Part shown: positions 1 through 17,290 of the stretch, piece after piece
How the letters are laid out: every line of letters begins with the position of its first letter
How positions within the stretch are numbered: the stretch's first letter is position 1
DNA from: Membranipora membranacea
Lineage: Eukaryota; Bryozoa; Gymnolaemata; Cheilostomatida; Membraniporidae
DNA: 64,000 nucleotides
Reading direction: 5' to 3'
Assembly (NCBI GenBank): GCA_914767715.1
Contig: OU612068.1
Coordinates: forward strand, 22,442,001 to 22,506,000
The notes under the pieces: model-generated
Databases searched by the model: none
The model's input: the letters and a program-made list of their open reading frames with translations, nothing else
Told to the model about the DNA's origin: nothing
Program-made: the position numbers and the translations under genes

Positions 1-3000
1 TTTTATTCATGTATCAGTGCCCTCACCTTTTTATGGGAGATGAGAACACAGTTCGAGTGCTCATGCTCACAAGAGAGGGCATAGTCTGGCAGTCTTTCAC
101 ATAACTGTCTGCAGAATTCCAGAACTTCACTGTGCCATGGAACATTCTTCATGGTGAGATCACTAGCAGCTGAGTCTCCACAAAATGTTACTCCCTATAA
201 GAAGAAATTATCATAACATTAAAAACTGGTTTACAATTAGTCATTCCCTCAAACAGGAATCAAGATTGTGATTCATGAGGAAAAAAGACCCGCTATGCTA
301 GCCGAAAAGCAAGGCACTGTAGCACATAGATGAGTACAGCATCACTTTTGCTGCATGAAACTGAATATTGGCTTGTTGATGAGCACGAGCGGGCCTGGTT
401 CTGAAACAGTAGCTTTCTATTAGTACTTTAATAGTGAGGCGATTTCCAGTGAAAATAAGAGAAATATTCCAAAGAAAGAATAAATGATTGGTATCATTCA
501 AATATTGAGGCGGCTATGATATTAGACAGAATAATGTTAAGACCAAGACACTTAGCCATGTTAGTATTGGGAATGTAAGAGAATGAATCATGACAAATAG
601 ACTGGTAGAATGAAGATTACCTTGCAGAAGCTTTAGTAGGCATATCAGTCATATCAGGAGGAGAGACTTTCAGATGACGGGGAATTTACATAATAATTTC
701 TCCAACAATTATTTTTTCAATCTTTCCATAATATTATTATCTAGCATTATATTATTTCGTAATGAAACATCAAGGGAAAAGCTATCATGTATCCTTGCAA
801 AAGATACACTCAGATGAGGTAGTGTTAGATTGAGGGTGGCTAAATGTGCAGAAAGTTAACATTCCCATTGATTAGTACTTGAACTGGTAGGTAGAGAGAA
901 GAAGGATTCATTTATAACAATACCAGGTTAATGTACGGCAAAACAGCACCTCAAATTCAAACTATTCATTCGTAATATGTTTACAATTTTTGTCAGCTCT
1001 GATCATATTTAGAGAGTATAGTTGATCACAGACATAAGTACTGAGTTGAAGTGTTTCGGTTAATAAGCTGCCTTTGAGAACGGAGTGAAAACCAAGTAGG
1101 ATTAATAAAAAATAATATTTACAATTCAGCCTTGAACTGAATGATTAATTACATAATATTATCCATTTTTCAACATGATACGTCAGTAAGGCATCTCAAG
1201 TATGATTTAAGAAGTCAGCCAGCCCTATGGCAAATAAAGACGCAGTGTTATGGTAGGACGTGCTGCCAAAGGGTTCTTGAAAGCTTAATTCTAACTCAAA
1301 GGAAAGTTGAAGTCGCAACCAATGGTGTATTTGTAATATTTGACCAGGTTTGTTTTTAAACCTCATTGAATGTGTGGAGTTACATTAAAGGCCAGTTTTG
1401 TTTGCCTTCCCGCATATGCTGAGCGCATTGAAGGAGTAAAACTTCATAGATGAGGAAAAACTTCTTAGCACAGTTTGTCTGAATCGAATCCGATCCACGA
1501 GCTCAAATATCATAATGATAACAATAAAGTAGCCACTTCATTTCAAATCCTGAGAAAATTTCAATATCTGTGAATAGAGTAAGTGGCATAATTTCACTAG
1601 TGAAAATACTTGAACCCTGAGGTTAAATAGTATTGTGTCTGTGTCGTGAAAAATCAAGACTGATTATTTGCTTGAACTGAAGAAAGCTACCTGTGCTTCA
1701 AAACTCAAGTGTGACTCTTGAAATCCGAAGCCTGTTAGCTTTAGCATTGATGGCCGCTTCAAAGTTGTAACAGCAGAGAGAGCTAGCATGGCTGTTTATT
1801 AGTCTTTTCGTACTCTCTAATCACTCGCCCAATTATTTATACGGGTCGGAATTATTATCACTTGATTTGACACATACGAAAGTTTTGTTGGGCGCTGATG
1901 TCTCAATAGATAAATCATTGTGCATGGCTAATTTCAATTATCTAATCCAAGTTCTGGGACTTTTTTTTGTTATCATCGCTAAATATTAGATCTAGATAAA
2001 GCAGAATTTAGTCATAATTCTCCATTTGCATGTACCTGACTACCGTTGTCTAATTTGATTTAAGTGGCTGGGTAAATAGAGGAAAGTACGATTATGAAGG
2101 GCTAGCCACTAAAAGTTATTCCGTTATGACATTGTTGCCAATGACAGACGCCATAATGTATGGAAGTAGGAGATAACATGATCACAAAAGTCTGAAATCG
2201 TTTTGGATGAAAATAGCAAACATTGATAACTCCCAACCGGGCAAGTTTTCACACATTACAGGAGCACTAATATTTGCAGTGACTGATTAAATGCCCAATT
2301 ATAGCATGTGACCAGCTTTTTAAACTGTTCTCATACTAATTTGTCAATAGATGTCACCTAATACACCATGATGGTTGCAACTCATTTCTAAATGACTCTA
2401 ATCTTTTACTCATCCTGATTATCTTTGCTGTTATTATTGTGAAAACCCCTTGGCTCGCAAAACTGTTGGCATTAGGCTACAATCTTGTTGGAAAATTCTG
2501 ATATGGACTAACCTTTACTTCGATGAATGTTGGTTCACCAAGAGCCACTAGTCTAGCATACTCATCCAGCTCTTCTGTGTTAAACGATTTAACAAGAGTC
2601 AGTCTGTATACTGTTCTCTGACCCTGCAGAAAATATAAATTGTGGATATGGATAAAAAGAAACAAACCTGTTATCTTACTTAGTCCATAGTTCCGTGAGT
2701 TGTCTGATTTTCATCACTATATGCAGAGAGCAGACAACTTTTAAGTCTAAGGCAATGCTATGTCAGGACCAAAAACATATAAATATTTATATTTTTATGG
2801 TCAGGACCTTACCAATATTTATGGTCAGAATATTCAAATCTTAATGCTGTCAGCCACATATCTTATATTTATGCTATGAATCATCCAACGTTCTGTGGGC
2901 TGTCAAAACACAGCGAATTCTGAGAATAGGAAGTTGGTCATATGCATTGAATCTGAAATATTTAACTTTATAATTAAATTACTAATTTATTAAAAAGTGA

Positions 3001-6000
3001 TTTAAACTAACAGATAAGTAATAATAATAAATTACTTATTATATTTATGGCTATTGAAGACATACCTTATCTTTCAGAAATCTAAGACTGTCGACGAATC
3101 TCTCCCAGAAATCAGAGAACAGAGGTCTGTCTATTTTCTTCAGACTCTCTTTTGTGCTGGCGTCGACACTAACATACAGCTGAGTCACTGGCCTCATATC
3201 TCTGTCAAATAAATAATGATATAATAAAGTCCTATTCCGGTGGAGGGAACAGGGGAAGGCTTTATTTATTTCGACCACATACCAGTTAATGATTCTCTAA
3301 AAATATCAACAACAGCATTAATAGGAGCTATAAACATATGTAGGCTTTAAGGGGGCAAGCGATAAAATATTGCATACATTGTTTACTTCTAGTCTCTCAA
3401 AAAAGTGCAAGTGCTTGAACTGTTTTGGTTGATTTAGCTTTGAGTCTCGGAATTCCAACTTAGAGAGAACGAAGCTCTATGCTAACTTGATTATTAGTCA
3501 AGCTGAACACTCACCTTATAGCATCAGGGAATTGAGCATTTGTGACAAGGAAGGAAGAGATCTTCTGATCATGGAGCAGATCTACAAACTTGTTTATCTC
3601 TGGATACATGATAGGTTCTCCCACCAGAGATAGAGCACAATGTCTGACAGCCATTCCTTCAGCTATCTTCTCTGGGATAACTCCTGGTACACCTGTGTAT
3701 ATCACAGTGGAAAACAATTGACATCTAAACGAGATGGAGTTGCTCTCTACTATGAGGAAGTGGGTTGAAAATCAAGGTGACCAACCATTAACATATAAAC
3801 GGTCAATTATTAATATATCTTCGATGCAACTGTAGAAGTGTAACAAACTAAACACTATACTTTAGAGCCTTATAAACCAAACATTCAAATTTTTATATAC
3901 AGATGTCATGAGTTCGACAGAAATTTTCGCCTCAATAAAACTGGTAGGACAACTCCAATTTTACCATCCAACATTTATGTGACTTGATACAGCAGGGAGT
4001 TTGGTCCCAAACCCCCTGGATACAGTATCTAGGTCCTAGGAACCTAAATATTCATAATTATTTGCTAATGAAAATCGAAAGCTTTAGCACAAAACATAGA
4101 GCCGTTGCTATACCTTTGAATTGGTTGATCATTTTTCTGTGATTTTCTAGAGCACCTTGTACGATGTCCTCAGCTGGGTCCATCGACCATTTCCACTCTG
4201 TACCGACAGGGTTTGTGTGGTGTCTATACAAAACACATAAACGTTATGGGCATTTTCAAAAAATGAGAGTTCACCACATACAAATAACACATATTTTCAA
4301 AGTGCCTGATGTACTTACACCATCAGCACCATACTGTGATTAAGTGAAGGGAACTCAAAGCAGGTTACTGGTTGGTCAATCTCTTAATGAAATGATTTAC
4401 ATGACATGACAAACGCACGCAGCCTCGAAAACATATTTGAACCAGTTGTTTTTTGTTTGAGTATTATTAGGCTGCTGTATAAAATTTACACTCAGATCGG
4501 GTGCCTCAAGATTTATGATAGCTTCCCTCATCATGATTTTCTGTCTTTGATGGCCAAAGCAACTTACCTCCAACAAAAGACACATTTATTGGCACAAGCC
4601 AGACTAGGCGTTGTCTCCATACACCTGTGACTCTCTATACCATAGAATGTATGTTTGTAACATCCACCTCTACCTCTCAGCATTGACTACAAGTAGAATA
4701 CTTAAACTGTTAATACCATCTCACACAAAATCATGGTATATGTCTAATACACATTTACAAGATTACTTATGTGATCACATCATAACCTAACAATATGTAG
4801 GTAGTCTTTGAATGAGGGGTACATCAGAATGTAAGTGGGCACCACCCATAGATACAAAATTGTTTTTATATCATGTTCATGTTCATGGACACATTCAATT
4901 TTCGCTACGTTGTACATTTGATAACCCGCATTGCGATAACAAAAATGCAGAATAAAGAATTGAACCATTTGATGACTAATACAGTTTTCATTTTTTCTTG
5001 GTAGACACGTTTACCTTAGTCCATCTGCACAGTTTGACACCAGAGTGAGATCCTATGATTTTGTAGCCTTGTTTCTCTAGAGATTTTCTGATAGTAGGGG
5101 TGACCATCTCTCTGACCTGCTTACTTGCCTCCGCCTCCTTACTAGCAGCCATCACCTTACCCATATCCTCCAGATCAAGGAGAGGTGCTGGGGTTGCTGC
5201 TGCTTCATCATCGCTGTCATCGCTACTACACGCTATCTAAATTTTGGGCGAGCATAATATTGTCAGAGGATATACAAGTGCGGTCCCATAGAATCATGAT
5301 AAACCATTGGCAATGAAAAGGTAGTAATCACATATGATTCTGATGTAACATCCCTTCCATATCATATTCAAGTATGGGAGTGCAACTCCAAACTGAAAGA
5401 ACCAGTGTAATAAGCACTTACTTACAATTTGGTCCCAAAGAATCATTTAATTAGAGCCAAAAAACAACTAGAGAAGTGCAAAGATAACAAGAACTTCACA
5501 TGAGATTTAAAGTATTAGGTCTTCTCCCACTTCATGCACGATCTCCACAGTAATACATGTATCAAAAACTTCAAACTGACAACTAATTTCTACCTCTACA
5601 GTCTACACCATCAGCAAAAGCATTTTTATAGCAAGGAGTCAACTCAATTGATAATTTTAGAATTCACCCTTTTATTCTATATCCAATCACGCAATGATTT
5701 TCATGCCAACGTACCTTATCACCATTTTCATCTGTCTTACAGCTACATATCTTCCCTTCACCAGAACATTTCTCTTTTTTCTTCTTGATTGGTTTCTTTT
5801 TACGCTTCGGCTTGTAGCCTCCAATCAATGTCGACCAAAATATTCCTTTCCAGACTTCAAAGTCCTTTTGTAAACCTGGAAAACCAATGTTACTAGTTAT
5901 ACACTTACAAACTGGTACCAAGGGCATGGTGCAACTTGTGTGGACATTTAATATAGAGTTTCACATCCATCAATATAATAAAAGGGATTTGTGACGATGG

Positions 6001-7759
6001 CATTTCGGATGGGCATGGGATGTGGATGCTCAAGGAAAAAAGCTGGTAGGTAATAGTTACCATAATATTTTTTGATATAATCATTAGTAGAGTGACGCCC
6101 TCATGACTTCCCCCCAACCAAAGCCAAAAATTAATTAATGCGGCAGTTCTATCGATGTTTTTACTCATACCAATCAAATAGCCACATGATAGACTTACTC
6201 CCATTGAGACTACTAGCCACATCTTCATCACATAGACTCAGATCCAGGAATGACTCAGCGGAGAGATCAGACAGCCATTCATCAACATTCTTTGCCGCCT
6301 AAAACAAGAAAAACTTGTTCTGTTCATAGAGATTTTATGCACACTCAAGATTTGTTGACAGATAATAATTGCAACTGAACAAGAGTTGAAGAAAATGTTG
6401 ACCGGCTATAAGTATGTTCCGAAATGGAGAAATTGGAAGTCAAGCCATTCTGATCCAGTATGAAGCAGTGCGATTTTAAAAATGGCCTCCCTTACTCTTA
6501 ATTACTACAGTTAATTTTAGTAAAACGTACTATATGATAGAGCACATTATAGCTGTCATAGTTCCCCTAAAGATTCATAAAGAAATTTCAGTGTCTCATT
6601 TATTTCACCAGCGTTAGTAAGAATTAAAATTCATCCAAAAATAAAGACACACAAAAACAATGCTCACTCATAATTTATTTCATAGAGGTCGGACAATTTT
6701 ATAGCAATAAAGTCCGCTCTCAAATCATACCTTGCAGTAATTAGATCCATATAGAGAATTACCGAGCCCTACAACACAATACTGTAGACCTTGCAGGTAA
6801 CTAGTACCGTATCTGAAATCATTCACAGCATCTTTTAGCCATGAGTAAAACCACCCAGCACCTTCAGGTGGGGTGCCATCAGTGTATGTCGGCATGATGA
6901 ATACACAATAATTCTTATTCACCTGTAAAAATTATAACGTTCAAAAAAATTTAGAAGACAAGAACATTGGAAGATGCGGTAAATCCATTTTGGTTTATTA
7001 AGCCCATGAACAGGGATGAGACCACGGCCAAGTTCTTAGAAACCAAAATATTGTTTCGCCATCACACATTTCCACAATTCAGTGTATTTGAATAGCAATC
7101 AGTGTAGTAAAAAATAAAATACAATGCTTACCTGATCAACAAGAGTTTCAGTTTCAAATTTAGAGAGATCTGCAGAGGTTGTTTTCATCCCAGCCTTCCT
7201 GCTTTCCTTTTCAAGCTCTTCAGCAAATATCTAAAATAAACAAATAGGCTTAGCAATGTAGTAAAAGCAAAAGAGAACCTATACCTTGACATAATCACAC
7301 CCACGTCAGAGGTAGGCTACTCCTGTGTAAGAAATTCTCTTCGAATGAGATTGACTGTGAATTATAAAATTAATCAAAACCACACATCTATTACTATATT
7401 AACGAAGTGCTACCCTTAGGAACAAATCATACCCAGAGTGATTGTCCATTCTTCAATTTTGAGCCAGGGCCCAAAATTCAATTTTATGCATAATTGCATC
7501 TTGTATGGTGTGATACAATACTCCAATCTGTTATCATAGATTGATTGTCATAGTTGATCACCTTTGCCTGACCCTTCTGAGTTGCATAGAGTATGAGAAG
7601 TCCTTTCTCTGTTGACGAAGGAAGTTCAGCATCTTGTTGAGACTGTTTGGATCTGAGAGCTAGGTAAGCGACATACGCGAGACCTACAGCTGATATACCA
7701 GATAATAGGTAGAGTGTAGACCGCGATGGCTTCAAGTCTTTAGACAGTATACCCGGCAT
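1..7759 (-). CDS. TYW1: TYW1, tRNA 4-demethylwyosine synthase (3' end cut by window)
   Basis: TYW1 joins pyruvate to 1-methylguanosine-37 of tRNA-Phe to make the tricyclic base 4-demethylwyosine, an early step of wyosine synthesis. Coding exons on the minus strand: 7759-7562, 7230-7132, 6922-6731, 6298-6199, 5875-5715, 5236-5015, 4686-4568, 4223-4114, 3692-3515, 3201-3066, 2623-2513, 194-27. All have GT-AG borders and matching phases, giving 598 codons before the last exon(s) left of base 1. Residues about 14-35 form a membrane segment. A flavodoxin domain follows (FMN loop YATQKGQAK, then [15 protein letters not shown] and [11 protein letters not shown]). A Lys-rich linker leads to the radical-SAM domain with C355-x3-C359-x2-C362 ([10 protein letters not shown]) and the conserved [17 protein letters not shown]. 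The start is the first ATG, 22 nt after a splice acceptor, so an upstream 5'UTR exon is expected. The order of domains and motifs is that of animal TYW1, so the identity is secure. Confidence 0.96.
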
Positions 7760-8008
7760 GGCTGCTGCTTCAATGGCAGTCCTGTAAAAGGAAAGCAGGT
7801 TCATGTTTTAAATCATTTGCAAATGGTGACTTATTGTTAGCTACGGCACTGATCATTTAAACAAGTTGGTTTTTGTACATCAAGTTGTAATCAAAGTGAT
7901 AGAAACCAAATCCATGCATGTTCCCTGAATTGCAAGCAAGGTGTAAATAGCAAAGAATTTATTCTCAATAACAATGGCTAGGCTACTAGTTAGTATATGA
8001 TTAAATTG

Positions 8009-9693: not shown

Positions 9694-12600
9694 ATGGACG
9701 CTGAGGAACATCAATCGACCTCAACATTCAGGGAATATCTGAGGATTAAATCAGTGCAGCCGGAGCCTGATTATGGTAGGATAACCATTTATTGAAGTAG
9801 GATGTTGAAACATATAACTGTTTCAACAAAATCATGTCGTCGAAAAGCAGTGTGGCTTATAAGAATGCACTACTGCATGTGTAGGCCTGGTCTTATTTAC
9901 GTTATTACAAAACAAAAAGAGTCTCTCACCACCAGTGAGAAAAAGCAATTATTCCAAGTGGTTACATTGTTTTTGCAACACAGGATACTCCCAACCAGTT
10001 GCATTGTTGATATGCAGACTTCATAGAATTTGCATACTTTGCATAATTAGCTGGTATATACCACTATGCAGCTAAACAAAGTGCACCATGAGAAAGCATT
10101 CACATCGTTTATCATTGCTGTAGATGGTATTGTGAAATTTCTTGAGAAATACGCGAAGGTCAATGGGTTCGGCTGTAGAGTGCATGAGGTAAGTGTGGTG
10201 ATGCTTGCCCTGTTCCAGCTGCCAATAGTAGTATGGTATTTGCAGCCTTGGTTTATCTAAAAAACTCTATGTGCTATTATCAGAATCTCAACTTTTTAAG
10301 CACTTGCTTGGAAATGGCACACCAAAGTAGGATAATGTGTGCATGTGTTTTGGCAGACCACCAACACTTTTTCATACTAATTTTCCTAGTATCCCAACAT
10401 TATGCATACCAGTAATATTTTGCTTCTAGCCTTGACTTATGAAGCCTGCATAATTGATACTCTACTTGCTTGTTTTGTAATGTAGATTAGCCTTTGGCCT
10501 GTATGTTGCCTAATAATCTATAATTGGATGAGAAATATGATAACGACCGACCACCATGAATTTACTGTGCTTACATATTACAGGCGGCACCGGACAGACC
10601 TATTGTGATACTGACTCTCGAAGGTACAAACCCATCATTGCCTTCAATTCTACTCAATTCCCACACAGATGTTGTACCAGTCTTCCCGGTATGTGGTTAT
10701 TTTTTATCACCATTCTATAATAGGATTGACTAGACTGGGTGCAGAATAATGTATCATTTTAATACATTCATTTCTTAATTTCGGAGGTGATCAATTACTG
10801 TATTTTTTATTGAGAATGACTAGTTTTAGAAAGCCAATACCGGTTGTTTTGGCAACATTGGTTGATAAAGATAAGTATCCCTGCAGAATGTCAAGATACT
10901 TGATAAAGTTTGCAAAGGTTGATGGATGTCTGGTTCCGCTTTATCAAATTGGTGGGTATACAGGGGTATTCAGATGAAAATTTAAATCCACACTGAAAAC
11001 TTTTGCAAAACTAGACAGCACCAATGAACCTTGACGATGATTTATAACACTCTATGGATAATATCGGATGTGTTAATAAGGGAACACCCATGTAAGTCTG
11101 ATGAAGAACTTTTTAGAACATTTGATAAATGAGTATCTAACTCCTTGATTTGATGCAAGAAATTGGGTTTATGTGTTGCCTCCTTGCAGCATGTTTATGT
11201 TAATGGCAGTTTATCATGTATTTTGTAGCAGGCTGTTTGTTGAGTTTTATTGGTACCAATTCATCTGCCGGGTGATTATAATGTAATCATCCTGTGCACA
11301 TGTGAATAAACAAATGTTATCTCATTTTAACAGCATCAAATGTCTCAAATAACCCTTTAAGAATTTGTTATGTTACAGGATCAGTGGACCTATGACCCCT
11401 TCTCAGCTCATAAAACAGAAAATGGTGATATATTTGCAAGAGGTTCCCAGGTTTGTATCATTAGTAAAACCTGTGCTCAATTTGACTGTTTAGCAGTTAT
11501 TCCAAGTACAAAGCACTTGGGATTTCCATCATCACGTTACAACACATTGGACATATCATTTGAAAACTACTATACACCCTAATTATTTAGACTTTCTTGT
11601 ACCCCAGCAACCCATGCAAAGTTTGAGCTCTCGAACTTAAATTGTCCAACTTATTAAACAAGCCAAACAAGAATACTCTCGGAAAATACAGCATAACCTA
11701 GCGAAAGAACCTGCTAAAGCCTGGACTGACATTAAAAAGATTAGTGGATTACCTACTAATAGCCCAAAACCAACTCAACAGAATCCATTCAACTCAGATG
11801 ACCTAAACACCTTCTTCACAAGATTTGAGAAGCCTCTCGCTGACCGTCCTGACATCAATAACAACGCCACCATAGCACCACCTTTAGAAATAGAAGAGGC
11901 TACTGTCTTAAAGCAGTTGAAATCGTTGAACTCGAGGAAAGGTCCAGGCCCTGATGGCCTCATCCCCAAAGTACTTAAGCTATGTGCCTATCAACTGGCG
12001 CCTGTCATAACGAAACTGTTCAATTTATCTATCACGTCTAAGTCAACCCCTACTTCCTGGAAATCGGCCATTATCAAACCCCTACCCAAAGTTAAGAATC
12101 CCAATCAACTTAAACAATACAGACCAATAGCGCTCACCAGTTGCCTGTGCAAAATGATGGAGAGACTTGTTAAACATTACATTATTACTCATACAGCTAT
12201 GGACCACCTTCAGTTTGCTTATCGTGCAAACCGCTCAACTCAAGATGCTCTTTTATGCCTCACTACTACCATCACAGATTCCATTGACAAGAAAGCTTCA
12301 AATTATGCCAGGTGTCTGTTCCTTGACTTTTCTTCTGCATTCAACACAATACATGTTCCAGACTTAATCTCGCAACTATCACATCTCGACTCCAATGTCA
12401 CTGAACGGATATACAGCTTCCTAACGAATCGCACCCAAAGAACAATAGTAGATGGCAATATCTCAAAACCCATCATAACCAACACTGGCACTCCCCAGGG
12501 TTGCTGTTTATCTCCACTTTTGTTTTCAATATATACCAATAGGATTACCTCAGACTTGAGCAATATAACTGTCATTAAATACGCAGACGACACCTGTATA

Positions 12601-15600
12601 ATTGGATGCATATCAAATCAATCAGATCTTAGTGCCTATCTTGATGAGATTAGTAGAATTTCAAAGCAATGTTGTGATTTAAACCTATCGTTAAACGCCT
12701 CCAAGACTCAAGAAATGATGTTTTCTACTCAGCTTGTTAGGCCCATTACCCCTACTCTTATCCTTAACGGCACGGAAGTTGATTTTTGTGACAAAGTAAA
12801 ATACCTTGGTGTTACTGTTGACGATAAACTCCGCTATCATGATCATGTGCAATCCATAGTGACTACTGCATCTCAACGCATGTATATTGTGAAAAATTTT
12901 GTATACTATAGCTCAAAGCCCCTTTCTCATATGTTATTCAAGAGTTTTATTGTATCCCTCATCACTTACTGTCTCCCCATACTTTTTACAAGCATCCATG
13001 CAAGCGACAAGAAGTCCTTACGCAAAATATTTAAAGATGCCGCCAAGTTAGGGATTGAGCACCCCGATATAGATGCTCTGGTGGCCAACCAGATCAAGAC
13101 ACTTGGACTACGGTACATACACGATGAAGAGCACTTTATCAATGACTTTCTAACTAAATGCCCCTCAGGTTGCTACCGCACCGTTAAATATCGGGGTACA
13201 TGGGGTAGAGACAGCTTTTTAAGACATCTCATACATACACTTAATAATATACTATTCTAAAAAACTTTTTATACAACAGAGATCTGATTTTTCCATGTTT
13301 TTCTTTCTTGTCAGTATTAACAACGTATTTCGTGACAAATTTTTGTCTATGATAGTAATAAATCCATCCATCCAACAGGCGGAAGCAGGTTGTATAACTA
13401 ATATGGAGTATCACAATGGTTTGTGGTGTCTCAGGATGGGAAACCCTCCCTTTTAATGATATACAGCTATATATGATAGGTTTTTTATGTTATTTTATTA
13501 GGATATGAAGTGTGTTGGTATCCAGTATCTAGAAGCTCTGAGAGAGATGATGGCTGAGGGTCTCAAGTTCCAGAGAACTATTCATCTCTCGTTTGTGCCT
13601 GACGAGGAAATTGGAGGTAAATATTCTTTGTTCCCAACATAATTATGCATAAGCTTATGATCATGATGATGTTTTTAGACATTTTTCTTCACTCTTGATG
13701 ACAAGTTAGCTTTAACACATGAGAATATGCATATTTACATTGGCAGAAGACACCACTCCATATGCTCGGAAAATAATAAAACACAGCCTTCGTGCACATT
13801 TAGTCCTTCCGTGTTCCAACATCTCCGGTCCAAAATACTAGATCAATGTGTTTAACCCATCTGATTGTGTTGTTTGAATATTTTTTCTTACTCAACCAAT
13901 CAAGAATTCAAGTTTGATACAAAAATTTAAATATTCATATATGCTGATGAGCTTCATGTTTGATTCATTAGTCTACAGATAATCTATTTCAGGCAAACTG
14001 GGAATGAAGATTTGGGTGCAGACAGATGATTTCAGATCGCTGAATGTAGGATTCGCTCTGGATGAAGGACTGGCATCCCCTGGACAGGAGATGAGAGTCT
14101 TCTATTCAGAGAGAATGGTCCGCTGTAAGTGTCCATTGGTTGCAAAGTAGAAAACATAGAGACAATTATCAAATATATATTGTCAGTATAATATAGATAT
14201 ATATATAATTTATCTAATAAACATAGTTTATAAATCGCGTTAAAACAAAATAGATCTACAATGATTTAATGATATATACATAGCATATATTGAAATGCTC
14301 AAATTTTACTGGATGGTCTCACTTCCAAATGACCTGATTTTGCTACACATGTTTTTTTATCATGAACGAATGCCTGCTCGGAAACTTCTTTGTAATCTTC
14401 ATTAACATAAAACAGCTTTCAGATTATTATATTGTGACATCGCTCTTTGTTTGTTTTTCTAGGGGGCTACATGGTGGCAAAGGGAAACCCAGGACATGGA
14501 TCTGCTTTTCTGAAGAATACTGTTGGGCCAAAAATTGTAAGTTCAAAACGTTTGTGAAATCAAATACATACAATAATTCTAATGACTGTACAGTTCTGCT
14601 GCTTCCATAATAATGTTGTGTCAGAAGCGTAATTCTTTGTCCGCATACTAGGTTGATGTCACAATCAATTCGAATTAAAGTTTGAGTTCTCAAAACTGTA
14701 CCCATATAGTTTTTCCAACCCTCCTTTTTTCAGCACAAAGTGATGGGCAAGATTCTCGAGTTCAGAGCCCAGCAAGAGGCAATGTAAGTGATAAGTTGTA
14801 GCAATAGGGTCATATACTTTCTATAATTCTGGTCTAGAATAAATCCGGCCTATCGATACAAGGGGTCAAGATGCAGATGGCTAAAAAATAAATGAATGAA
14901 ATGCTCAGGAATTGACAGGACAATATATTAGGGAGATCCTCAATTAGTTTCAAGCTATCTCTCATTTCCTTAATCCATAATTTCTTTCTTGTCATTTCAG
15001 TCGAAACGCTGAATTTACATATTATGTATTCCCAGTACTTAGCCCATCGGTTGCATATATTTGGTGAACATGATTTTGCATTCCTATATATGTCATGCGT
15101 CATAACATGCCGCGGTTGACAAAACAGATCAATTTCATTCCATGTACCTTTTTGTTTAGTTTGAATGGGGATCCAAAACTGTATCTCGGTGATGTCTGCT
15201 CCGTGAATATCAGCGCAATGAGGATAAGTATTTCATTTATTGTTTGTTATCATTATTTATATTAATAGTTTGGTAGGAGTTATCTGTTCGATGTTACTGA
15301 ACAGACAACTCTTACTATAACTTCATGAGCAGCTCTGATAGGGTTCACTCACTTATGAAAACAAGCCAGTTCTTTCGAAATCTGACTTGCTTATTTTTCT
15401 TTGTATTATACTCGAACTCCCAGAATATTTCATACTCAGTATACAATCTGTAGAATGCGTGGCATTGATAGACCATCAGATTGACTGATGTGACACTCTG
15501 AGGCTTGTATTGTTTTGTTTTCTCTTGTTTACGGAGGGGTCCAGTTGAATGTAGTACCTGATGAGTTGAAGGTTGGGTTTGATATGAGGGTGACTCCATC

Positions 15601-17290
15601 TAAGAAAGAAGAAGCTGACAAACTACTCCAGCAGTGGTGTGAAGAGTGTGATGTCACTATAGAATGGCATCATGTGAGTGTATTACCTGTGTGTAAATCA
15701 AGGCCTTTTGTAGTTTGTTAACGTCCAGTGTCTGAGTGCCTCAATGGTCGAGGCCTTTTCTCAGATTTTGACTAAATGTTTTATTACCTTGGAGAGAGAA
15801 AGGGCCTTGTCCACTAGACTGGCACAAACTACAGATAGCATAAGCCGTACATACCATATTACAAGGCAGATCTTTATCGATCCTTTCTAATCATCTTAAT
15901 GACGGTCCCATTCATTGCACTGCTTGCAGTTGCCTCATTCTGTATCGTTGTATCATTCTCTAGAAAATGAGATGATGTGCATGTTTTCTTACAGAAACAA
16001 GACGAAGAAGGAGTCACATCCACAGACCCAGAGGATAAATGGTTTAAAGCTTTCTCAGGTGCACTCAATGACTGGTAAGATATTTAAATTTTACACTACT
16101 TCTCACATGTGCTTTATTTTCCTGATGTAGCCAAGTTTTTTATAGTTTTTGAAACTGATATATCACACAATACTGACTCTTCTATCATATTATTTGGAGA
16201 ATTCCTTTCACCATCAGGATGCATATTTTACTCAGGAAGTTATATATCAGCTCAAAGTGAGTCCGTATTTCTTTCAAAATAAATTTGGATGTTATTTTAG
16301 TGGCATTATCTATACAAAGGAAATTTTCCAAGCTGGTACTGATGCGGCCTTTCTCAGAGGGGTTTGTAGCTTATGTTGTCCTTGTTTCGACCCAAGGATC
16401 TGAAAGTTTCGACCCAACTCCTTTTTTGAACTAATGCTCTCCTTATATAACGGGGTTCCTAATTCAGTCAAACAACGCATACTCCATTTCCCATCAGCTA
16501 TTCACACTGCTCTAATTTTAGTGAGGTCTCCTACACAAAGGAAATTTTCCAAGGTGGTACGGACTGCAGATACTTGAGAAATGTAAGTGATTTCTTAATG
16601 TTTTCAGTTCTATAAAGTATACCTTGGATATGTGCCCAGGTATAACTGACCTCAGATATTTGAGAAACGTAAGTCAATTAAAATATCTGATCGTCCCCCA
16701 TAGAATGTGGTTTATACCATAGTTAACACATTGTGACTGTCACTTTATATATGACTCTGGTAGCCAGGTGCTCTATTTTAATCCAGGTCATGTCAGGGTC
16801 ATTTTGCATGGTTGCATGTGAACTTATTTGCGTCTAATGTGCATGATTTCTTTACACTCCGGGGACAGGTTTACATACAAAGCTTGCTCATCTTCATAGT
16901 TATTGGAGTTTTTTTCAGAACTCTCAACTTATGAGGTAAATTTGAGTTTCAGAATTGGCATTTAGAACATGTGGCCCCAACTTTACCACTTTATCACACT
17001 ATACCACGTCTGAGCCTGCCCGAGTTAGCTCTCCATCTCCTGAAAAGCAAAAGGAAACAACTCCAAATGCAGCTGAATTTGATGCAAAGATATCTAGTGT
17101 AAAATGATTTCACCTATACTTATAATAAACTATTCTATAGATTGGGTTGCCAGCTCTGGGATTCTCTCCAATGAACAACACCCCAATCCTCCTGCACGAT
17201 CACAACGAGTTCCTGAATGAGAAAGTGTTCCTGCGTGGAATTCAGATCTACAAGAAAATCCTGCCTGCAATCGCTAATGTACAGGATTAA
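9694..17290 (+). CDS. ACY1: Aminoacylase-1 (N-acyl-L-amino-acid amidohydrolase, M20 family)
   Basis: This is a cytosolic zinc enzyme that hydrolyses N-acetyl amino acids. Exons: 9694-9775, 10124-10188, 10584-10688, 11379-11450, 13502-13616, 13993-14124, 14463-14536, 14734-14783, 15160-15223, 15533-15673, 15995-16074, one of three alternative exons (16301-16361, 16522-16582 or 16608-16668), and 17141-17290. With any one alternative the frame stays open for 396 aa, close to the usual 400-410. Metal and catalytic motifs are present: NSHTDVVP (His76), DMKC (Asp109), PDEEIGG (Glu143/144), ALDEG and LLHDHNE near the C-terminus. GGVQLNVVP marks the dimerization region. The intron after 15223 starts ATAAGT and ends AC; all others are GT-AG. 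A retrotransposon lies in the intron after 11450. The coding exon begins at acceptor 9659, 34 nt before the ATG, implying a 5'UTR intron. Confidence 0.96.
11590..13378 (+). mobile_element. 5'-truncated non-LTR (LINE) retrotransposon in ACY1 intron 4
   Basis: The element carries the 3' part of a LINE reverse-transcriptase ORF, a short 3' UTR and a tail of ATCC repeats (13362-13374), with no LTRs. The left edge is approximate (between about 11583 and 11641). It lies in the sense direction of the host gene. Loss of the 5' part (endonuclease and start of RT) is the usual result of incomplete target-primed reverse transcription. I could not identify target-site duplications with confidence. Confidence 0.85.
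11641..13260 (+). CDS. Non-LTR retrotransposon reverse transcriptase (N-terminally truncated)
   Basis: The open frame runs from just after a TAA at 11638-11640 to the stop at 13258-13260, about 539 codons with no internal stop or frameshift. RT landmarks in order: RKGPGPDGL, the YRPIALTSC region, [11 protein letters not shown] (motif A aspartate), [24 protein letters not shown] (catalytic YADD, near 12577-12591), then [11 protein letters not shown]. The C-terminal tail is full length. These motifs resemble the CR1/L2/Rex-Babar group, but I assign the clade only tentatively. There is no in-frame start of its own and no endonuclease domain, so this copy is dead by truncation although its remaining frame is young. 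Confidence 0.92.
   Translation: MVQLIKQAKQEYSRKIQHNLAKEPAKAWTDIKKISGLPTNSPKPTQQNPFNSDDLNTFFTRFEKPLADRPDINNNATIAPPLEIEEATVLKQLKSLNSRKGPGPDGLIPKVLKLCAYQLAPVITKLFNLSITSKSTPTSWKSAIIKPLPKVKNPNQLKQYRPIALTSCLCKMMERLVKHYIITHTAMDHLQFAYRANRSTQDALLCLTTTITDSIDKKASNYARCLFLDFSSAFNTIHVPDLISQLSHLDSNVTERIYSFLTNRTQRTIVDGNISKPIITNTGTPQGCCLSPLLFSIYTNRITSDLSNITVIKYADDTCIIGCISNQSDLSAYLDEISRISKQCCDLNLSLNASKTQEMMFSTQLVRPITPTLILNGTEVDFCDKVKYLGVTVDDKLRYHDHVQSIVTTASQRMYIVKNFVYYSSKPLSHMLFKSFIVSLITYCLPILFTSIHASDKKSLRKIFKDAAKLGIEHPDIDALVANQIKTLGLRYIHDEEHFINDFLTKCPSGCYRTVKYRGTWGRDSFLRHLIHTLNNILF
15702..15837. repeat. Degraded foldback element, CCTTYTGTAGTT family, copy 1
   Basis: This segment lies in the ACY1 intron after 15673. 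One end reads CCTTTTGTAGTTTG and the other carries its imperfect complement CAAACTACAG. Between them, GTCCAGTG, GAGTGCC and GGTCGAGGCCTTTTCTC match the reverse complement of the element at 40473-40581, with an extra internal segment. Confidence 0.65.
16301..16361 (+). other. ACY1: ACY1 alternative exon 12, copy A
   Basis: This 61-nt exon has acceptor ATTTTAG and donor GTTTGT. It enters in phase 2 (completing the TG left by 15995-16074 to Cys) and leaves in phase 0. It encodes residues 327-347, including [17 protein letters not shown]. At the motif that reads TD-x-R-Y in other aminoacylases it has TDAAF, so the first conserved arginine is missing. Its 5' half is nearly identical at the DNA level to copy B. 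Confidence 0.8.
16522..16582 (+). other. ACY1: ACY1 alternative exon 12, copy B
   Basis: This 61-nt exon has acceptor AATTTTAG and donor GTAAGT, with the same phases and length as copy A. It encodes [17 protein letters not shown] and keeps the TD-x-R-Y-L/I-R motif typical of the family, so it is the best candidate for the ancestral or default exon. Only 25 nt separate its end from copy C. Confidence 0.85.
16608..16668 (+). other. ACY1: ACY1 alternative exon 12, copy C
   Basis: This 61-nt exon has acceptor TTTTCAG and donor GTAAGT, again with the same phases and length. It encodes [21 protein letters not shown]: the 3' half matches copy B (TD-x-RYLRN), while the 5' half has diverged (YTLDMCPG against YTKEIFQG). 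The open frame and intact splice sites argue for use rather than decay. Confidence 0.75.

Follow-up and report, generated by a model that had tools for sequence, protein, structure and literature searches.

Candidate mutually exclusive exons in tandem in an aminoacylase-1 gene of the bryozoan Membranipora membranacea

The ACY1 gene and its tandem 61-nt exons

The window, the whole stretch of 64,000 nucleotides of Membranipora membranacea DNA analyzed here, contains a complete aminoacylase-1 (ACY1) gene, the exons and splice sites of which were read directly and assembled. Three 61-nt exons, designated A, B, and C, lie between its penultimate and last constitutive exons. The features discussed below are:

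9694..17290, + strand: ACY1 gene from start to stop codon, comprising 11 coding exons before the array, a single array exon (A, B, or C), and the last exon
15995..16074, + strand: constitutive exon 5' of the array, preceded by AG and followed by GTAAGA, ending in the TG of the junction codon
16301..16361, + strand: alternative exon A, encoding 20 residues after the junction codon, with Ala for the middle Arg of TDxR and a weak donor, GGG/GTTTGT
16522..16582, + strand: alternative exon B, the closest to the family consensus; its first codon is TGA in the frame of an A-B join
16583..16607, + strand: 25-nt spacer between B and C, with donor GTAAGT and acceptor TTTTCAG
16608..16668, + strand: alternative exon C, with PGITD and other features common to the single exon of the paralog on contig C5
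17141..17290, + strand: last coding exon, containing the HDHNE zinc-ligand stretch

The protein assembled from the 11 upstream exons, one copy, and the last exon has 396 residues with A, with B, or with C. It contains the Pfam domains Peptidase_M20 and M20_dimer, the M20 score being 111.9 for the A isoform and 110 and 109 for the other two, and it matches human ACY1 (structure 1q7l). Among the database proteins listed (the best 120 of 3325), the best match is an aminoacylase-1-like protein of Watersipora subatra (P0001, 68% identity), and none derives from the window gene. Residues His80, Asp113, Glu147, Glu148, Glu175, His206, and His373, which by counting in the human numbering are the zinc ligands, the catalytic Glu, and the dimer-domain His, are all retained and lie outside the exchanged exon.

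The ten introns among the 11 upstream exons range from 197 to 2051 nt, and those around the array, other than the one between B and C, are 226, 160, and 472 nt long. The full 396-residue frame requires a non-GT-AG (AT-AC) intron at 15224-15532. An intron of this non-GT-AG kind is found at the same place in both ACY1 genes of the assembly, reading ATAAGT...TTTAC in the window and ATAAGT...TATAA at C5:13313773-13314305; in the C5 gene, the LQGGEAQ residues of protein P0002 (described below) are compatible only with the ATAAGT...TATAA join. The Watersipora record differs at this site (KMRVQ), perhaps through a mis-annotated intron. Intron 4 of the window gene contains, on the gene's own strand, a reverse transcriptase frame of the non-LTR type (RVT_1; 11917-13260, 447 aa), which is uninterrupted between 11917 and its stop codon. 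Elsewhere in the window, a gene at about 2500-7800 on the minus strand was taken by eye to be TYW1-like; one of four tested fragments from it matched Flavodoxin_1 and the other three had no match. A further M20-family match in the assembly (L001, C6:16747994-16748113, E 4.4e-7) is absent from the ACY1-protein search.

Each of the three alternative exons is 61 nt long, is preceded by AG and followed by GT, starts with T, and has an open frame; all are entered in phase 2 and left in phase 0, with a junction codon, TG/T, that specifies Cys. The preliminary description of three tandem homologous 61-nt exons having their own splice sites and the same phases was correct to the base. A 20-position profile was made from 175 homologous segments, comprising the best 120 of 3325 in one search and 55 more among the best 120 of 1998 in another. 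Applied to both strands of the whole window, it gave scores of about 34.5-34.7 for B, 29.8-30.0 for A, and 19.1-19.3 for C, with the fourth match at 6.7; the three top matches are neighbors within the expected gene and have the correct strand, frame, and order. A DNA search of the 339-Mb assembly (339,339,785 bases in 18 contigs) with positions 16250-16750 found the array once.

The three exons differ from each other at 38-49% of their bases. The likeness between A and B is patchy: they are 82% identical over 49 nt that include the acceptor and the 5' half (16294-16342 versus 16515-16563, with an exact run of 19 nt), and despite these similar 5' halves their 3' halves are strongly different, a pattern that suggests partial gene conversion. 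Among the GT donors of this gene, that of exon A is the weakest, scoring 2.47 on a donor matrix as compared with 5.6-11.6 for the others; the same GTTTGT hexamer also follows ACY1 exon 4.

Frame logic and the exchanged segment

The frame is open only with exactly one of the three exons, and each other combination (none, AB, BC, AC, or ABC) runs into an in-frame premature stop. Skipping all three creates a TGA at the junction, joining A to B creates a TGA directly after A, and the A-C, B-C, and A-B-C joins lead to early stops. That any single copy restores the 396-residue enzyme and that double inclusion shifts the frame, as proposed earlier, was borne out for all combinations. Two ways around this arrangement were considered and rejected: inclusion of all three exons (183 nt) does not rescue the frame because it meets an immediate stop, and retention of the 25-nt spacer, giving a 147-nt B-C exon, by arithmetic loses the phase change made by a 61-nt exon.

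The intron between B and C, at 25 nt as compared with 160-2051 nt for all other ACY1 introns, is too short for normal splicing. Steric exclusion, which is one known device and not obligatory for mutually exclusive exons, was judged by a distance of less than 50 nt from donor to branch point; the B-C intron measures 25 nt in all and is under this limit. The intron between A and B is 160 nt long, so that steric exclusion does not extend to A. The suggestion that exclusivity in the array is enforced by steric block is thus supported for B with C and not for A. Decay of frameshifted mRNA, or regulation, would be needed to keep A from being combined with B or C. Eight inverted-repeat pairs that might form competing RNA pairings at the array are short or poorly placed, and none is convincing.

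The exchanged segment directly precedes the zinc-ligand His, and the earlier observations that it adjoins the zinc site and that TDxRY is lost in A were confirmed. Exon A reads TDAAFLR, and the last exon has HDHNE. In the predicted fold of the Watersipora protein (mean pLDDT 94.9), modelled with an alignment that included 37 of the 175 homologues, the segment consists of a strand (residues 331-336), a Thr-Asp loop, and a helix (residues 342-347) that ends at the exon border; a Foldseek comparison with the PDB returned the expected M20 relatives. The segment corresponds to human T347-R353, as counted from the structure of the T347G mutant. In the related enzyme DapE, T325 is named among the residues possibly important for substrate recognition in PMC4012986, and we infer that it is equivalent to T347 of ACY1.

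The segment is strongly conserved among the 175 homologues: Thr is present in 174, Asp and the last Arg in all 175, and the middle Arg in 165, the remainder having Lys (7), Tyr (2), or Cys (1). The TDxR..R motif is kept in B and C. Exon A keeps the Thr, the Asp, and the last Arg and has Ala in place of the middle Arg, a residue found there in none of the homologues. A and B share a Gln at a position where 157 homologues have Pro and none has Gln. Exon C keeps TD.RY.R, but at two core positions that are nearly invariant it carries Met and Cys, each seen there in 0 of 175; the Ile that precedes its Thr occurs in one homologue only, P0002. Substrate handling is likely to be altered in the A and C forms, in which a change of acyl-amino-acid specificity, as suggested earlier, is conceivable; the two could instead be low-activity or regulatory forms. 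A resemblance of isoform A to the CPG2-like motif GGTDAAY was dismissed: when solved structures were searched with its exon A segment, two sequences came back, human ACY1 and an unrelated weak match, and the Pfam M20 score of isoform A exceeds those of the other two only slightly.

Conservation of the copies and a second ACY1 gene

Adjacent exon pairs are identical at 38/61 and 37/61 positions, and the 60-nt flanks (A-B upstream, A-B downstream, and B-C downstream) are identical at 19/60 apiece, which is the chance level. Neutral decay was simulated with B as the start and the observed number of differences placed at random, with no insertions or deletions and all change on one branch; the profile score of A was reached in 0 of 100,000 runs and that of C in 29 of 100,000. 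Because A and B share the exact 19-nt run, the diverged 3' half of A was tested separately. It differs from B at 14 of 21 bases, yet D..[YF][LIVM]R is kept, an outcome seen in 3 of 200,000 neutral runs. The simulations support selective maintenance of A and C. All three copies score under the 5th percentile of the homologues (39.6), and C is also below the lowest-scoring of the 175, P0002, at 29.2. Comparison of silent with replacement changes gives borderline values for B-C (p 0.05) and for A-B (p 0.06), and the A-C pair is nearly unbiased (pS 0.59, pN 0.47, pN/pS near 0.8).

A genome search with the B isoform gave 28 exon matches, 12 on C4, which belong to the window gene, and 16 on contig C5 (29,963,023 bases), where a second ACY1 gene is located:

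C5:13302936-13316753: second ACY1 gene, the exons of which match P0002 at 69-100% per tblastn piece

The low values arise where alignments extend into introns, but at least two internal residues differ. P0002, a 397-aa protein of JGI source whose contig does not exceed 1593 bases, spans the C5 exons; given the near-match with residue differences, it derives by splicing from the C5 gene itself, from a different allele, or from a close relative. Since P0002 is near-identical to it, the C5 paralog appears to be transcribed and spliced. Its slot holds a single 61-nt exon of the PGITD type, with the same phases as A, B, and C (SDVKYKVEQFPGITDMRFVRN). P0002 alone among the 175 homologues has Tyr for His206, and it alone has Leu for His373; with two catalytic histidines replaced, P0002 is unlikely to be an ordinary aminoacylase. 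Replacement of His206 by Ala in ACY1 is reported in PMC4012986 to leave the enzyme nearly inactive. In a tree built from the window protein, minus the alternative residues, and 34 of the 175 homologues, P0002 and the window and Watersipora proteins form a group (100/100), in which the window protein pairs with P0002 (97/75).

The last exons of the C5 gene occur in five tandem blocks at C5:13314306-13432951 (L033-L045), about 24-36 kb apart; no 5' exons were detected in blocks 2-5, and two blocks have an in-frame stop. A profile scan of the C5 locus found no A- or B-like remnants in the exon slot; after the five C-like exons, the next match (score 10.5) is at 13391043, a long way from the intact gene.

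The C5 exon is nearest to C in protein terms, with BLOSUM sums of 65 for C, 49 for B, and 27 for A; by these sums, the segments fall into one group with A, B, and the Watersipora sequence and another with C and C5. Copy C and the C5 exon have PGITD.R..RN in common. Their comparison gives pS 0.99 and pN 0.27, the lowest pN of six pairs (Fisher p 3.7e-6). At the DNA level, the C5 exon is identical to A, B, and C at 30-36 of 61 positions, with 35/61 for B and 36/61 for C. C is favored over the others as kin of the C5 exon except in 17% of site bootstraps, and the kinship is therefore suggestive only. Most simply, exons of the A/B and C types would already have been alternatives when the gene was duplicated, and C5 would have retained the C type alone; it is also possible that sequence passed from one gene to the other or that Ile arose by convergence.

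Two protein pairs, from Discoglossus and Macrobrachium, that were examined as possible exon isoforms of this segment are 83% and 76% identical throughout; the evenness of identity along each pair identifies them as paralogs and not exon swaps. A protein search with the C region returned no C-type candidate, which in part reflects a limit of its word filter, as P0002 was missed too.

Interpretation and comparison with known systems

The anatomy, the frame logic, the splice dinucleotides, the conservation limited to the exons, and the fixation of a C-like exon in the paralog are all read from the sequence. They are probably best explained by three mutually exclusive, tandemly duplicated exons in the bryozoan ACY1 gene, with B as the default. 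Every pre-mRNA would include one of the three exons and no more, and each exon would supply the same structural piece: a β-strand, the Thr-Asp loop of the substrate site, and a short helix to the exon border. B, the closest to the family by sequence, would be the default exon. B and C would exclude each other because the 25-nt spacing cannot hold U1 and U2 together on one intron, and transcripts that join A to B or C would be removed by nonsense-mediated decay. The substrate pocket would be changed in the A form, which lacks the Arg of TDxR, and in the C form, which has Ile before TD.

It is unlikely that B alone is used, with A and C as remnants of past duplication that are decaying or have dropped out of splicing. 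Such a history would fit the position of B nearest to the family, the loss of a near-invariant Arg and the weak donor in A, the score of C under that of every scored homologue, and the lack of a window-gene product among the database proteins listed. However, the flanks have fallen to chance identity, whereas A and C keep the frame, both splice dinucleotides, and TD....R, which is rare under simulated neutral decay, and C is closest to the exon of an apparently transcribed paralog even though nearly all silent sites have changed. We regard as quite improbable the alternative that only B and C are functional and that A is a poison exon lowering the ACY1 level through decay. The A-B join stops at once and the A-C join early, A lies 160 nt from B with no steric block, and its weak donor would fit regulation, but A by itself is open and keeps D..FLR despite many nucleotide changes, which a poison exon would not need. 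An assembly artefact in the form of collapsed paralog or haplotype sequence is extremely improbable. Although the assembly is described in PMC10290214 as one haplotype, incompletely phased, and a related gene is present on C5, the array occurs once, its copies are 38-49% different, unlike alleles, and the C5 exon is identical to them at just 30-36 of 61 positions.

A further reading, which we consider unlikely, is that the array provides a splice-chosen active site in a dimeric metabolic enzyme. The A/B and C types would have split before the C4/C5 duplication, C5 would have fixed the C type and lost its catalytic histidines, and isoforms A and C would be low-activity or ligand-sensing partners that dimerize with B and tune it; such tuning is proposed because the ACY1 active site uses a dimer-domain histidine.

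Mutually exclusive exons are better known from channels, adhesion proteins, and muscle proteins. If all three copies are used, one housekeeping hydrolase gene swaps a substrate-site loop by splicing, and three enzyme forms could be obtained from an interchangeable exon beside the zinc site. Whether a divergent paralog can be seeded by an alternative exon that existed before it is a question for which the C5 paralog is a natural test case. In limited searches of the open-licence PubMed Central literature, none of the best-ranked papers (10 of 72 and 12 of 2,602), by title or opening of the abstract, concerned such an exon array in ACY1 or in bryozoans, in agreement with the earlier statement that no such array is known in aminoacylase-1; the arrangement would be of a known type in a gene and a phylum for which these searches gave no earlier case.

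Tandem-duplicated mutually exclusive exon clusters have been surveyed in human (PMC5740500). The ACY1 array resembles those clusters, in the features that the survey sets out, in its adjacent homologous exons, matching length and phase, and non-functional combinations; it differs in the devices of its putative exclusivity, A being exclusive by frame only and B and C also sterically. As frame and steric devices are both described in that survey, both devices of the ACY1 array are known ones. The encoded 396-residue protein shares the M20 and dimerization domains and the zinc and catalytic residues with human ACY1 and with P0001, to which its identity is given above, but the window gene has three versions of the TDxR region whereas the P0001 record has a single B-like form. 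The C5 gene and P0002 have the same slot, a 61-nt exon in the same phases, and the PGITD.R..RN of copy C; in contrast to the window gene, C5 has one slot exon, Tyr and Leu at the equivalents of His206 and His373, and its 3' exons in five tandem blocks.
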